DNA of 64,000 nt, from the NCBI GenBank assembly GCA_029552945.1, contig JAKPDD010000048.1, forward strand, positions 33,553-97,552, in the 5' to 3' direction. The translations under genes and the position numbers were made by a program. Source of the DNA: Spirochaetota bacterium (GTDB taxonomy: Bacteria > Spirochaetota > GWB1-36-13 > JAKPDD01). The notes under the pieces are model-generated. The model saw only the letters and a list, made by a program, of their open reading frames with translations. It was not told the DNA's origin and did no database searches. The first letter of the stretch is position 1. Each line of letters opens with the position of its first letter. Of this stretch, positions 19,166-64,000 are shown in pieces.

Positions 19166-21406
19166 ATGGCCAAAAATTTAGAAGAGAAAATAGAAATAAT
19201 AAAAAAGATAATTGACAAAACATCAATACCAATATGTCTATACAAAAACACTATATTATACTATAACGATAGTTTTAAAAAATTCTTAGAAAAAATAGAC
19301 TATGATATAAATAAAGAGATAGAAATACTAATAAATAAAAACAATGAAAAAACAGTTGAAAACTATTCAGATTATAAAATAATAATAGAAGAAATAATCC
19401 TGGATGAAAAATACTATATAGTTCAGATAGATTTTAACAAAGAAGAGAACCAAGATTATCAGTTATTCAACAGTAAACCAATAATAAAAATAAATCAAAA
19501 TGGAATAATAGTATATAAAAATCAGGCTGCATCTTATATTTTTGATATAAAAGAGAAAAATATTAATAACTTAGTTAATGTATCACTAATTAAAAAATCA
19601 ATCGATGATGGTAATTTAACAACAATTATTAATTATAAAGAAAAAACATTCCAGTTAAATATATTCCCAACTGAAGACTTTTATCTTTTATACTTTATTG
19701 ATATAACAGAAAAGTCAATTACAGAAAAAAAATTTAAAATACTTGAAAAAGCTTTTAATTCTATCCACGAGGGAATAATTATTACTGACAAAGAAAACAA
19801 AATCATTATGACAAATACTATGTTTTCAAAAATAACTGGATATAGAGAAGAAGAAGTAATAGGTAAAAACCCTTCATTTCAATCATCAGGAAAGCATGAT
19901 AAAGATTTTTATATAAAATTATGGGAATCTTTATACAGAGATGGATTCTGGGAAGGCAATATATGGAATAGAAAAAAAGACGGAAGTATTTATCTTGCAA
20001 GGTATACAATAAGCACTATAAAAAATGAAAATAATATAGAATACTTTGTGGCTATTTTTGAAGATATAACAGAGTTATCTAATTCTAAAAACAGTGTAGA
20101 GTTTATTATGAACCATGATTATTTAACTGGGTTATTTAATAGGTCAGCTTTTGAAGATAAAACTTATGAATTACTAGAAAATCTAAAACCAAATAGAAAA
20201 GTAGCTCTTATACTTGTTAATATCAAAGGTTTTAGGAAAATAAATACAATATTAGGACATGTTATTGGTGATTTTGTTCTTATTGAAATGTCTAATAAAC
20301 TTAAAAATATATTCAAAGAAAATATAATAGCAAGATATAATGCAGATGTATTTAGTATACTATTGGAGTATGATGAACAATTAAAGGATAGAATAAAAAT
20401 AGATGTGCAGAAAATAATAGATGCTTTTAAAGAACCTTTATTAATAAAAAACAAGGAAATTTTTGTAAATGTAAACATAGGTGTATCAATATACCCAGAA
20501 GATGCCAATAATATATATAAACTATTACAGAATGCAGAAGAATCATTATATAAATCAAAAATAGATGGACTAAACTTCTACATATATAGCTCAATAGATA
20601 AAAGAGATGAAGAATTATATAATCTTGAAAACTTTTTAAGAAAAGCATTAAAAGATGAATTATTTGAACTATACTATCAACCACAGATAAATTCAATAAC
20701 TGATTCTGTTTACGGTGCTGAAATACTTTTAAGACTTAGAGATAAAGATGGTAACTACATAAGTCCTGCGAAGTTTATACCTGTTGCTGAAAAAATCGGA
20801 ATAATAATAGATATAGGTGAATGGATATTTGATAAAGCATTTAAAACCTTTTATGAATGGTTTTATTTAAAATGTTATAATCCAATAAATATTTCAATAA
20901 ACCTATCTCCAAGACAGTTTAATGACCCTAATCTTTTAGGAATGATAGAAAGAAAATTAAGAATGATAAACATAGAAACAAAGTATATAACTATTGAAAT
21001 AACTGAAGGAGTTGCTGTTGATAATATAAAAAATGTTATTGAAAAAATAAATTATTTAAAATCATTATCTTTTTCTCTTGCGATAGACGACTTTGGAACA
21101 GGTTACTCATCACTTGCGTATATAAAGAAACTACCCTTAGAAAAAATTAAAATAGATCAGTCTTTTATAAAGGAACTGCCAGCTTCAAAAGAGGACTTTG
21201 CTATAGTTGTTGCAATAATAAACTTAGCATCAAACCTGAGACTTGATATAATAGCAGAAGGAGTTGAAACAAAAGAGCAGGTTGAACTTTTAAAAAGACT
21301 GGGTTGTTATATAATACAAGGATATTATTACAGTAAACCTTTACCATCAACAGAGTTTGAAAAACTATATTTAGAAAAGATAGAACAGGCAGAAGAAATA
21401 AATTAG
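19166..21406 (+). CDS. PAS-GGDEF-EAL protein; degenerate GGDEF, apparently intact EAL
   Basis: PAS TDKENKIIMTN...GKNPSFQSSGKHDKDFY; GGDEF site reads YNADVF; EAL motifs EILLRL, NLSPRQF, EITEG, DDFGTGYSSL, AEGVET, QGYYYSKPLP. Confidence 0.92.
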   Translation: MAKNLEEKIEIIKKIIDKTSIPICLYKNTILYYNDSFKKFLEKIDYDINKEIEILINKNNEKTVENYSDYKIIIEEIILDEKYYIVQIDFNKEENQDYQLFNSKPIIKINQNGIIVYKNQAASYIFDIKEKNINNLVNVSLIKKSIDDGNLTTIINYKEKTFQLNIFPTEDFYLLYFIDITEKSITEKKFKILEKAFNSIHEGIIITDKENKIIMTNTMFSKITGYREEEVIGKNPSFQSSGKHDKDFYIKLWESLYRDGFWEGNIWNRKKDGSIYLARYTISTIKNENNIEYFVAIFEDITELSNSKNSVEFIMNHDYLTGLFNRSAFEDKTYELLENLKPNRKVALILVNIKGFRKINTILGHVIGDFVLIEMSNKLKNIFKENIIARYNADVFSILLEYDEQLKDRIKIDVQKIIDAFKEPLLIKNKEIFVNVNIGVSIYPEDANNIYKLLQNAEESLYKSKIDGLNFYIYSSIDKRDEELYNLENFLRKALKDELFELYYQPQINSITDSVYGAEILLRLRDKDGNYISPAKFIPVAEKIGIIIDIGEWIFDKAFKTFYEWFYLKCYNPINISINLSPRQFNDPNLLGMIERKLRMINIETKYITIEITEGVAVDNIKNVIEKINYLKSLSFSLAIDDFGTGYSSLAYIKKLPLEKIKIDQSFIKELPASKEDFAIVVAIINLASNLRLDIIAEGVETKEQVELLKRLGCYIIQGYYYSKPLPSTEFEKLYLEKIEQAEEIN

Positions 21407-59545: not shown

Positions 59546-62479
59546 TTAGTTTTCTACTATCTTATTCTTAAATTCATCAAAACTCTCAAACCAATAATTT
59601 TTATAACTTTCAAGAACTTTTGATATAGGATATTGAGTTTTAAAAAGCATTTTCATTTTTATTGTAAGTCCATCATATGAAAAACTTTTATCCTTGTTAT
59701 CAAATACTACCCTATATCCATCAATTTTTCTATACCCATCAGTATGTTCTGTTCCTTTTGGATCAATAAAAAGAATAGTATAATTATTATCTTTTTTTAA
59801 CCAGAAAATAAAATCTGGTTTAAACTTTTCTATTTTATTTGTTTTTGGTTGATAATATGGGATATAAACCTCATCCAGTGTTTCATCTATCTTAGAAAAA
59901 TACCACCAATCAAACTGTTTAAAAAAGTTGTTCTCTTTCTCTAAATAATTTTCCAGCTGATTAATGAAATCTACTTCGCTTTTGTGTTTTATAATATGAT
60001 GAATAAAATCTACTTTTTCAGATTCTGCCAAAGCAACAGGCAAATAATAATGATTTGCTAAGTACTTTATTTTTAATTTTTCATTTTTATTATATATTAC
60101 CTCAGATTCCTTTAGCATAGTTGTTGAAATATTTTCAATTTGTTTAGTATAATCATCAAGTGTAATTTTCCCTCTTTTAAAATCTTCTTTAAGACTTTCA
60201 GTTATATAACCTTTATCTTTATATTTTTTTACCTTTTCAATCTTTTCTCTTAATGAGTTTAATCTTTCTACTGTTATACTGATTCTTTTAAAATGTATAA
60301 TTTCTTCTTCAAGTTTTTTAAATGTTTTAAACTCTTTTACTTTATTAATAAAATGATTAAATATTCTTCCAAGTAAAAATTCTGGTTTTTTTATCTCGTT
60401 TTCTTCATTGCTCAGTATAAAATAATCATTGCATTTACTATTAAATCCTTCTTTTATTTTGTTTAACACCCTTAAATCACAGTCATATTTTACCAAACAA
60501 ACTCTTTCGCCTAAATAATTAAAATATTTTTTTACAAGTTCAAAATCATTCTTATTTATCTGAAATTTCAGAACATCTTTCTCTTCAACAATGATTTTAT
60601 CAGAATCTTTATAAACTGGTATTAATAATAATTTATCCTTTACTTCTGGATTAATTTCAAATAAATCACTAATTAACTCTTCCTGTTTTTCCTCTTTAAT
60701 GGTCTCTATAACTTCTCTTAAATTTTCTGCTTTTGTCCCAAAAACAAATAAAGTTTCAAGTGCTGGTATGTTATTTTTGATTTGATTAAACTCTTCATCT
60801 GTAATATCTCCATTATTATATAAAAATAGAAGTCTTTTTCTTTTATTTGGCAATGGTTCGATTCTAACTCCTCTACCCATTGATTGTAAGACAAACTTTC
60901 TTGCATCTGTTCCTTTCCCTATGTTTATATAAAGAACAATATTCGGGCGATTGCTATCCCATCCTTCATAAAACGCACGTGAGCCCATAAGGATTGTAAT
61001 ATCTGAATCATTATGATTTATTCTATCAAAGACACTTTTATTATCAAATTTTTCAACAATCTCATAACCTGATAATTTGTTTTTTATCCATTCTGAAATA
61101 TCACCGATTTTAATTAAACCAAATGGTTTTTCACTTGTTTTAAGTTTTAAAACAATCTCCTGCCTATTGCCTGGAATTTTTAAGACTTCTATTTTTCCAG
61201 GTTTATCAGAATTAAAAACATTTTCTAAAATATCTTTATAAGTAATATCTTTAATTATATTTTCATTAATTTGTATATTGTCATTTGAAAACTCATATTT
61301 ACCTTGAATTTCTTTTAAAATTTCATTTTTCGCCTCTCCTAAAACACCTTCATCCCATGTACCGTTTGCTATATTTACAATTTCATTAAAAAATAAAAAT
61401 AGATCAGAATCTTCTGTATTTACAGAGTTTACTAATGTAAGAATTAATGGTTTATGATAATATTTACCTTTAATCTCTCTCTTTTGCTTAAAGATATAAG
61501 TATACAGAAGCAAAATTTTAAGAATAATGATTTGCTTTTTTTTAACTGTGAAATCTTCTTTTTTATTTAACTCAGAAATATCACTTTTTGATATGTAAAT
61601 CTGTTTTCCATACCCATCCTGAATAAACTTTTCAAGATTAAAATTAAAAACGCAGGTTACAAAGTCAATAGCATCTGTAAAAGTTGCAGAAAAATTAAAT
61701 AAAAATCCATTTCTTGAAAGTATTGAATAAAATTGCTGTCTTTTACTATCTCCTTTGTCTCCCTTATGTGCTTCATCAAGTAAAATATACCAGTTACCAA
61801 AATTATCATAGTTACGAAAATCTATAATCTTATCTTTTTGTTCATCTGAAATTAAATCACTACGATAATAAAAAACATTTATCTCATTACCAAACTTTAA
61901 TCTATTTTCTCTTTTTACATATTCATAGCTTTTCAAATTATATAACTCAATAGATATACCATTGTTAGCACTATTAAACTCATCAATATGTTTTTTAAAC
62001 TGCTCCAATAAATCCTCACGATAAGATAAAAATAAAATATCCTTTTTTGGGATCTGATTATCTTTAATCAAATTAGCTAGTAACTCAATTAATTTTACAA
62101 TCACAAGAGTTTTTCCACTCCCTGTTGCCATCCAGAAACTCATTCTGTTAATAAAGTGATAAAATGAAATTTTATTATTATTAATCTGGTAATCATTGCT
62201 AAAATCTTCAAATATTTTTTTGTTTTTTGAATTTGTCAAATTAAGGTCGAAACTTTCATTTAACCCATTATTCTGATAAAAGTTATAAAACTCCTGTTTA
62301 TTAGATTTAAAATCAATATAGTATTTATATAATACCTTTATCGAATTTTTTAAAGCATTCTGTTGATAGTCAAACAATCTCTTGTTTTGTGAAAATTTTA
62401 CAAGATCAAAGTTTATCCACTCGGTAGGTAAACTATCCCAATTTATACTCTCTGCTATATTTTGTAGATAAAGTTTCAT
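59546..62479 (-). CDS. type III restriction enzyme Res-like SF2 helicase-nuclease
   Basis: WMATGSGKTLVIVKLIELL (Walker A), YILLDEAHKGDKGDSKR (DEAH), VLQSMGRGVRIEPLP (motif VI), C-terminal FKPDFIFWLKKDNNYTILFIDPKGTEH (PD-(D/E)xK-like). Confidence 0.88.
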   Translation of the reverse strand: MKLYLQNIAESINWDSLPTEWINFDLVKFSQNKRLFDYQQNALKNSIKVLYKYYIDFKSNKQEFYNFYQNNGLNESFDLNLTNSKNKKIFEDFSNDYQINNNKISFYHFINRMSFWMATGSGKTLVIVKLIELLANLIKDNQIPKKDILFLSYREDLLEQFKKHIDEFNSANNGISIELYNLKSYEYVKRENRLKFGNEINVFYYRSDLISDEQKDKIIDFRNYDNFGNWYILLDEAHKGDKGDSKRQQFYSILSRNGFLFNFSATFTDAIDFVTCVFNFNLEKFIQDGYGKQIYISKSDISELNKKEDFTVKKKQIIILKILLLYTYIFKQKREIKGKYYHKPLILTLVNSVNTEDSDLFLFFNEIVNIANGTWDEGVLGEAKNEILKEIQGKYEFSNDNIQINENIIKDITYKDILENVFNSDKPGKIEVLKIPGNRQEIVLKLKTSEKPFGLIKIGDISEWIKNKLSGYEIVEKFDNKSVFDRINHNDSDITILMGSRAFYEGWDSNRPNIVLYINIGKGTDARKFVLQSMGRGVRIEPLPNKRKRLLFLYNNGDITDEEFNQIKNNIPALETLFVFGTKAENLREVIETIKEEKQEELISDLFEINPEVKDKLLLIPVYKDSDKIIVEEKDVLKFQINKNDFELVKKYFNYLGERVCLVKYDCDLRVLNKIKEGFNSKCNDYFILSNEENEIKKPEFLLGRIFNHFINKVKEFKTFKKLEEEIIHFKRISITVERLNSLREKIEKVKKYKDKGYITESLKEDFKRGKITLDDYTKQIENISTTMLKESEVIYNKNEKLKIKYLANHYYLPVALAESEKVDFIHHIIKHKSEVDFINQLENYLEKENNFFKQFDWWYFSKIDETLDEVYIPYYQPKTNKIEKFKPDFIFWLKKDNNYTILFIDPKGTEHTDGYRKIDGYRVVFDNKDKSFSYDGLTIKMKMLFKTQYPISKVLESYKNYWFESFDEFKNKIVEN

Positions 62480-62984
62480 AATAAACCTCTTTAAAATTTA
62501 AATCTTTAAGCATTTGATACAAATCACAGGTATATAAGTTAAATTCTTTACAAACATTGGGTATAGGTATTCTATTCTTCTGGTCTTTATTGAATTTCTC
62601 AAAAGTAACTATTTTATAATTTTCTTTCTTACTTAAAGCAAAAGCTATAAGCCAGGGGTCTGCATTATCTTCTTTCATAAATTCATCGATAGCATTTCTT
62701 GTATAATGATTATTTTTACTTTCTGCCCATCTCATAAGTTCGGAATATTTTTGAATAACTTTTGGGTCTTTTGTATTTAAAAAATAATTTGAAAAATAAT
62801 TATTTGCCCATTCTTTAAGATTATTTTCACATCTATTAATTTCCTCTTTGACTTTATCTAAACTTGCTAATTTTCCATTTTCAGCTTTGTCTACTAAAAA
62901 ATTCCAAAAATTCATCCCAAAAGCAAAGCGATAAAAAGTATTAGCTGGTGTAATAAATATATTTGAGTCAAGTAAATAAATCAT
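62433..62984 (-). CDS. DUF4411-like PIN-domain protein
   Basis: YLLDSNIFITPANTFYRFAFGMNFWNFL; ADPWLIAFALSKKENYKIVTFE. Confidence 0.8.
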   Translation of the reverse strand: MIYLLDSNIFITPANTFYRFAFGMNFWNFLVDKAENGKLASLDKVKEEINRCENNLKEWANNYFSNYFLNTKDPKVIQKYSELMRWAESKNNHYTRNAIDEFMKEDNADPWLIAFALSKKENYKIVTFEKFNKDQKNRIPIPNVCKEFNLYTCDLYQMLKDLNFKEVYYETLSTKYSREYKLG

Positions 62985-64000
62985 TTTATTCTCTCAATTA
63001 GTTTATTAAATGCCTTAGCTTTCAATCCAGTAATTCTTAACATGTCTCGATAAATAATAATATTGTTATGGAAACCATTAATTAATATATTCAAAAATCT
63101 TTTACTTAAACGATGGGATGTTATAGCATAGAAATTACCACCGCCAGATTTCTGTTCATTTTTTATTTCCTTATTGTATAGATTATTTAATTGTTCATAA
63201 AATTCATTTTGAGTCATTAATTGAGTATCTAATAGTCTTCTTAATATTACTATCTGACTTACCTTAAAGTATCTAGCCAATTCTTCCAAATTATTTGTAT
63301 TTTGGTATTGTTTTATTAATTCACTTAAAGGAACTAAAAATTCAGCAGTACATACATCACAAAATTTTTCTATTTTATTCTCAGCAGATTGTAAATGGTG
63401 TAGATCAAAAGAAGCACTTTCTCCAATTAAAATATGAACAACTTCATGAATTAAAGTAAATATCTTTGCAGAAATAGCATCATTGTTATTGATAAAAATT
63501 ACAGGGGCAACATCATCATATAAAACAAATCCTCTAAATTCTTCTACATTCAATTTGCGATGAGTATTATTTTCAACAACTCCATTTATAAGAACAATTA
63601 TCCCTTTTTCCTCTGCTTTTTCTTTTAAATAGTTAAATGCTTCTCTCCATTTATTCATTTCACTTGCCCAATTATTCTTTATGTCAAAAATTGTTTTTAA
63701 CTCTTCAATTATTTTTTCTTTATTATAATCATCTTTATACTTTCCACAAAATTGTATTTTCTCCTGTCCCCATTCTAACAATATATATTTAGCCCATTCC
63801 TGTATTTTTTGTGCAAACATAACTGTATCTAATAATTCGTTAGAAGGTAAAAATAAAAGGTTTTTTTCAGTTCTATAATGTGTAATAGGATACTTTCTTT
63901 CAGGTAATTTTTCCAGGAAGAAATGCCCAAAAGGTACATGAAAAATTTTAGATAGTTTAACTAATTGTTTGTATGTAGGATAATCATCACCACTAACCCA
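62981..64000 (-). CDS. ImmA/IrrE-family Zn metallo-endopeptidase, N-terminus beyond window
   Basis: IFTLIHEVVHILIGESASFD (HExxH); frame stays open above the track start to 64000: WVSGDDYPTYKQLVKLSKIFHVPFGHFFLEKLPERKYPITHYRTEKNLLFLPSNELLDTV. Confidence 0.88.
   Translation of the reverse strand, partial: WVSGDDYPTYKQLVKLSKIFHVPFGHFFLEKLPERKYPITHYRTEKNLLFLPSNELLDTVMFAQKIQEWAKYILLEWGQEKIQFCGKYKDDYNKEKIIEELKTIFDIKNNWASEMNKWREAFNYLKEKAEEKGIIVLINGVVENNTHRKLNVEEFRGFVLYDDVAPVIFINNNDAISAKIFTLIHEVVHILIGESASFDLHHLQSAENKIEKFCDVCTAEFLVPLSELIKQYQNTNNLEELARYFKVSQIVILRRLLDTQLMTQNEFYEQLNNLYNKEIKNEQKSGGGNFYAITSHRLSKRFLNILINGFHNNIIIYRDMLRITGLKAKAFNKLIERIK

Follow-up and report, generated by a model that had tools for sequence, protein, structure and literature searches.

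The 64,000-nucleotide stretch of Spirochaetota bacterium DNA analysed here (the window; GCA_029552945.1, contig JAKPDD010000048.1, positions 33,553 to 97,552 of the forward strand) ends in three overlapping minus-strand genes. They encode an ImmA-like zinc peptidase, a DUF4411 protein with a PIN domain and a Res-like helicase-nuclease. Do the three genes form one defence system, or does Res belong to another system? Most probably, ImmA and DUF4411 constitute a VapBC52-like abortive-infection toxin–antitoxin (TA) pair, embedded as second-line cargo within a type III restriction–modification (R-M) operon. The original prediction, made from the letters and open reading frames (ORFs) alone, had described a candidate defence or TA system. 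That general nature is supported. The three genes were recovered where it had placed them, with overlaps of 4 bp and 47 bp (Table 1). The zinc peptidase, the PIN protein and the helicase with a PD-(D/E)xK-like C-terminus all gave Pfam matches above cut-off and keep their catalytic motifs. Contig C34, one of 50 in the genome, physically ends at position 64000, which leaves ImmA short of about 34 residues at its N-terminus and the window without any upstream sequence. Full-length homologues, in which the N-terminal part is complete, align with the window ImmA from residue ~35.

Res was compared across 83 loci: 80 relatives fetched from genomes of bacteria and archaea, two more that the whole-genome search had given, and the window itself. 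L021 and L027 are one locus, which leaves 82 non-redundant loci. In 65/83 (64/82 non-redundant), res is preceded on its own strand by a type III mod gene; contig ends truncate most of the remaining loci. Because of this arrangement, Res is assigned on gene context to a type III R-M system, with Mod as its other half, and is not read as an ImmA-PIN-specific partner. The Mod of the relatives matched PADLOC MTase_III (2e-290) and Pfam N6_N4_Mtase, and Res matched PADLOC REase_III (1.1e-26). Searching the PDB with the Res sequence gave no match, even with a 23-member profile, and a fold comparison was required. The best PDB fold match of the predicted structure was 4zcf_C (EcoP15I Res; E 4e-8), with low TM-scores that may be expected of a flexible multidomain model (predicted local distance difference test, pLDDT, 77.5; predicted TM-score, pTM, 0.51). 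The Res start MxLYLQN matches that of the homologues in the alignment, and QSxGRGVRI is also conserved across 23 of them. ATP-dependent cleavage, paired asymmetric sites and one-strand methylation are predicted properties of the window system as a type III enzyme.

The window genome has a single clear Mod, cut to its N-terminal half where contig C27 stops (19680-20768 of 20768; MTase_III 4e-144); the sole Res of this genome is the copy at the end of C34. The C-terminal half of Mod was sought across the same genome and was not found; only weak methyltransferase matches (29-35%, short stretches) were obtained. The obvious, if unproven, conclusion is that C27 and C34 are neighbours and that the gap would hold the 3′ half of mod, the start of ImmA and possibly further cargo. 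The mod gene would then lie upstream of ImmA in the window genome. As a separate observation, the Mod of L021 (12184-15228 (-), genome G061) contains an in-frame DUF559/MTES_1575 nuclease-like domain (aa 337-440). Repeated TPLxPLxEGN-like peptide inserts are found near this domain; the Mod fragment of the window genome is without that stretch.

Judged by homology, ImmA and DUF4411 form a two-gene TA module of their own, with VapBC52 of M. tuberculosis as a homologue. ImmA matched VapB52 (PDB 9vzy_A) at 5.4e-13. PIN matched 9vzy_D at 2.2e-5 by sequence and at 9.5e-10 by profile. Entry 9vzy is a complex of a helix-turn-helix (HTH) protein and a DUF4411 protein, and 9vzy and 9vzz are VapBC52 according to the data statement of PMC13273310. 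The motif that links the N-terminal to the middle domain, and where self-cleavage probably takes place, aligns with VapB52 F75-R76; it reads HYR in the window ImmA, a conservative change, and FR in L028 and L029, with R43 invariant. The C-terminal GGNFY region is kept in the window pair. The AlphaFold model of PIN had a pLDDT of 86, its Foldseek matches were PIN proteins (e.g. VapC and protein-only RNase P), and the acidic residues D6, E48 and D109 are invariant in the alignment of homologues. In the PADLOC scan, ImmA matched capP (1.2e-10) and RmrA (1.1e-9). VapC52 is a PIN tRNase, the overexpression of which makes M. smegmatis resistant to phage (PMC13273310). VapB52 is an HTH-IrrE-peptidase antitoxin that sheds its own N-terminal domain by cleavage once single-stranded DNA (ssDNA) is added, and peptidase-triggered release of the PIN toxin has been proposed for VapBC52 with biochemical support (PMC13273310). 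ImmA-PIN pairs had been predicted as TA earlier in the NetFlax study (PMC10440598). By analogy, the window pair may behave like VapBC52, with ssDNA-dependent self-cleavage and tRNA cleavage.

The distribution of the pair was examined in the phylum, where DUF4411 was above cut-off in 35/393 genomes. ImmA adjoins DUF4411 at 29 of the 30 inspected loci; the exception, L112, has an unmatched neighbour of 194 aa. This pairing is well above chance. Within mod-res slots, DUF4411 was observed four times against 0.002 expected under a naive null (60 slot ORFs, 64 intervals). The corresponding probability is ~7e-13, or 5e-7 if a 30-fold island enrichment is assumed. Co-occurrence beyond chance, which the original prediction had named as a check, was thus borne out for ImmA and DUF4411. 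Res was downstream in only three of the 30 inspected loci (the window, G061 and G343; G061 corresponds to L021/L027 and G343 to L026), and 27/30 were without it.

The original prediction had gone further and inferred a peptidase-licensed PIN/Res defence unit. Its first part stood: ImmA and PIN are a TA pair of the kind for which release of PIN by the peptidase has been proposed (VapBC52; PMC13273310). Res as obligate third member did not, given the 27 loci without Res and the Mod found upstream of Res. A unit in which ImmA, PIN and Res all require one another, and in which ImmA switches on PIN, Res or both, would fit the tight overlaps in the window, the same order of the trio at five loci from several phyla and the near-single clade of the ImmAs that occupy mod-res slots (slot-type ImmAs). 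It is nevertheless very improbable, as Res has its own Mod partner and is mostly without ImmA-PIN in relatives, including near neighbours on the Res tree, and the pair also occurs without Res, both in the phylum and on the viral contig of L141. On the strength of the Res and ImmA trees and the stand-alone pairs, we reject the obligate form of this unit.

Stand-alone ImmAs for the ImmA tree were sampled from one phylum and from viral contigs. The slot-type ImmAs form a strongly supported clade together with one stand-alone viral-contig member (L141). They come from records named Spirochaetota, Leptospiraceae, Elusimicrobium and Calditerrivibrio, and from the window. On the Res tree, the five ImmA-PIN loci are scattered. 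A single clade was rejected by the approximately unbiased (AU) test (p-AU 2e-63), and five changes are needed. Their near neighbours carry RhuM-Fic (L023), MNT-HEPN (L030), a Hachiman-like pair (L025) or no cargo (L032). Because the ImmAs form a near-single clade yet their loci scatter on the Res tree, a slot-specialised TA lineage appears to have moved among, or to have been repeatedly lost from, related R-M operons.

Viral contigs were also scanned. A scan with the single PIN protein gave no relative, and the ImmA alignment retrieved eight. L141 (5890-7550 (+), an IMG/VR contig) carries a stand-alone ImmA-DUF4411 pair, the ImmA of which is 61% identical to that of the window. L149-L152, also IMG/VR contigs, are viral mod-res operons of the same family with no cargo between mod and res.

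The mod-res junction of the relatives was then considered as an insertion site. Of the 64 complete loci, 30 have mod next to res, and 32 have at least one ORF of ≥100 aa in between. In L028 and L029, mod and res flank ImmA-DUF4411 directly; in L026 and L027 the pair is accompanied by further cargo. The cargo belongs mostly to defence families, is nearly always codirectional and changes between close Res relatives. Where a cargo protein had no scan of its own, its family was taken from a scanned member of the same BLAST cluster. The 3′ end of mod is near-constant (...LIKPLIWW(E)-stop; L022-L100), and a Shine-Dalgarno-like GGTGG(GAG) stretch was found in 60/62 loci. The codons of this C-terminus themselves form the Shine-Dalgarno-like GGTGGGAG right before the start of the next gene. 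The next start codon, of res or of cargo, is -4 to +12 nt from the mod stop in 25/32 cargo loci and in 27/30 cargo-free loci, and the final cargo gene frequently overlaps res by 4 bp. Overlaps of -13 nt between mod and cargo were discarded as an artefact of the ORF caller, which took a GTG within the mod 3′ end; ATG starts are present a few nucleotides past the mod stop. The 4-bp overlap of ImmA and PIN is kept in 5/5 slot-type loci (the window and L026-L029). The 47-bp PIN/Res overlap is due to a window-specific C-terminal extension of PIN, homologues ending ~17 residues sooner. Read from the sequence, the junctions with mod and with res resemble translational coupling on either side of the slot, and the mod-res spot behaves, as far as gene order can tell, like a plug-in slot for second-line defences.

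Table 1. Features of the ImmA-DUF4411-Res locus and cargo found between mod and res in related loci
Feature	Locus	Position	Strand	Remarks
ImmA: HTH-ImmA/IrrE (Peptidase_M78) antitoxin gene (putative)	Window	62981..64000	(-)	Open 5′ end; Pfam Peptidase_M78 5e-14
DUF4411 PIN-domain toxin gene (putative; VapC52 homologue)	Window	62433..62984	(-)	183 aa; Pfam DUF4411 7.4e-44
Res, type III restriction subunit (superfamily 2 (SF2) translocase + C-terminal PD-(D/E)xK nuclease)	Window	59546..62479	(-)	977 aa; ResIII 3.4e-15
ATGA overlap, ImmA stop with PIN start, 4 bp	Window	62981..62984	(-)	Window ORFs; same in L026-L029
PIN/res gene overlap, 47 bp	Window	62433..62479	(-)	Window ORFs; relatives -4 to +24 nt
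HEVVH zinc-binding motif of ImmA	Window	63434..63448	(-)	Invariant in five slot-type ImmAs; aligns with VapB52 H216/H220/E245
Third Zn ligand E211 of ImmA	Window	63368-63370	(-)	Aligned with VapB52
Walker A ATGSGKT of Res	Window	62108..62128	(-)	Invariant, 23 Res homologues
DEAH motif of Res	Window	61766..61777	(-)	Invariant, 23 homologues
PD...DxK nuclease motif of Res (P888-D889 ... D906-P-K908)	Window	59756..59818	(-)	Invariant, 23 homologues
Slot cargo ImmA-DUF4411	L026, L027, L028, L029, window			
Slot cargo MNT-HEPN	L027, L030, L083			
Slot cargo AlbA_2/Schlafen-HATPase	L026, L027, L046, L052, L054			
Slot cargo RhuM-Fic, PDC-S23	L023, L036, L038, L076			
Slot cargo BRO-N, PDC-S13	L043, L044, L048, L061, L063, L068			
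Slot cargo AAA/SMC-like proteins	L026, L052, L054, L083			
Slot cargo DUF6119	L037, L055, L059			Single-gene, ~500 aa
Slot cargo Hachiman-like pair	L025	715-4699	(+)	269-aa protein + PDC-M23B/HamB-like helicase
Slot cargo SIR2 + short pAgo (pAgo_II)	L041	6955-9916	(+)	
Slot cargo radical SAM	L065			
Slot cargo AbiU2-type HEPN	L084			

The original prediction had itself named an outcome that would speak against it, namely a complete type III R-M operon in which PIN and ImmA were unrelated insertions. The relatives come close to this picture, except that ImmA-PIN recurs there in coupled form and is not inserted at random. If the junction were a recombination hotspot, the TA could be a passive passenger functionally unrelated to R-M. 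The turnover of cargo among close Res relatives and the 30/64 operons without cargo are in keeping with such a hotspot. The close-fitting junctions at both ends, the codirectional and often defence-related cargo and the improbability of DUF4411 in slots under either null argue the other way, and we regard this explanation as possible but not favoured.

Under the preferred reading, of a VapBC52-like TA carried within the R-M operon, Mod and Res would provide ordinary methylation and restriction as a first layer. The ImmA antitoxin would use its N- and C-terminal domains to keep the PIN RNase inactive. The trigger would be DNA damage, or ssDNA arising from phage attack or from Res cutting followed by resection. 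ImmA would then cleave off its own N-terminal domain and free the PIN toxin, which would cut tRNAs and stop the infection once restriction has failed. A stronger version, which we consider speculative, makes the mod-res junction a dedicated, translationally coupled docking slot in which DNA ends or ssDNA made by Res activate the ImmA peptidase and so free the tRNA-cutting PIN. If that were true, restriction itself would sound the abortive-infection alarm.

Several points weigh against the preferred reading. The mod gene has no physical linkage to the locus in the window, which stops at a contig end, so that the linkage of C27 and C34 is one that we infer. PIN gave no PADLOC match at E<=0.01, and PADLOC offered no model for the DUF4411 partner. 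The gating cysteine of VapB52, C229, is Phe at the aligned position in 5/5 slot ImmAs. The cysteine-switch step therefore cannot be transferred and gating may differ, and for this reason the pair is named VapBC52-like and not a member with the same gate. Toxin specificity and the response to ssDNA are predicted for the window pair from VapBC52. Any functional link between the TA and R-M would be a matter of interpretation, and co-location may only serve shared transfer and expression.

Two other purposes of the TA were weighed. TA pairs classically stabilise the loci that carry them. The pair might thus merely prevent loss of the R-M locus, with no role in phage defence, and its tightly coupled position and its mobility between Res backbones would suit such an addiction module. 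This is unlikely, however, as the other slot cargo is mostly of defence type and not TA only, and VapBC52, the nearest homologue to have been studied, has an effect on phage growth (PMC13273310). Alternatively, the TA might guard against antirestriction or R-M failure, being released when phage proteins inhibit Mod or Res or halt expression of the operon, in the manner of PrrC. Embedding within an R-M operon, the precedent of PrrC in type I systems (PMC12707154) and the presence of other nucleases or toxins in the slot speak for such a guard. Any physical contact of the TA with Mod or Res would be hypothetical, and the VapBC52 homologue answers ssDNA in vitro without R-M; we hold the guard to be doubtful as well. 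The confidences given to these alternatives and to the preferred reading overlap, since several of the alternatives assume the same anatomy as that reading and depart from it only on the purpose of the TA.

A peptidase antitoxin with a ssDNA-sensing homologue, encoded between the subunits of a DNA-breaking enzyme, allows a possible connection of restriction to abortive infection by a TA to be tested. The slot also flags candidate defence genes without a matched system, among them the DUF6119 protein, a DUF805 protein and several unannotated proteins of 188-269 aa. The representative DUF6119 cargo, in L055, had no PADLOC match, and this protein is therefore a candidate new defence gene.

Defence genes and TA embedded in R-M operons are already known, as are ImmA-DUF4411 TA. 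In the open-licence literature searched, neither an ImmA-DUF4411 TA nor a general cargo slot was found described for the junction of type III mod and res; this is weak evidence, the preprint of Payne et al. being outside its scope. In PMC12988326, the PDC series is attributed to the guilt-by-embedding approach of that preprint, and two slot cargoes match the PADLOC families PDC-S13 and PDC-S23. VapBC52 (9vzy, 9vzz; PMC13273310) shares with the window pair an HTH-ImmA/IrrE antitoxin with a DUF4411 PIN toxin, and HExxH, the Glu as third Zn ligand, the [F/Y]R linker motif and the C-terminal GGN(F/W)Y region are conserved; it differs in having C229 where the window has Phe, and the window pair probably has a type III R-M operon as its host. 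RosmerTA (RmrA-RmrT) and the NetFlax D25 ImmA-PIN pairs (PMC10440598) likewise combine an ImmA-domain antitoxin with a linked toxin. The window toxin is, in contrast to RosmerTA, a DUF4411 PIN protein that matches no described RmrT, and CapP slightly outscores RmrA. Type III R-M systems (EcoP15I; the N4-methylcytosine (m4C) type III system, PMC8259958) have the same Mod with N6_N4_Mtase and Res with SF2 helicase and PD-(D/E)xK nuclease, whereas the Mod of the window family is ~800-1000 aa with a long N-terminal region and one or more genes separate mod from res in half of the operons. In the m4C type III system, the extra gene is 5′ of mod and not in the mod-res slot (PMC8259958). DarTG2 in a type I R-M operon (PMC12255303) and PrrC in EcoprrI (PMC12707154) also place a TA or toxin gene inside an R-M operon; compared with these and with the guilt-by-embedding candidates, the host operon of the window is probably type III and its TA is of the VapBC52/ImmA-PIN kind.

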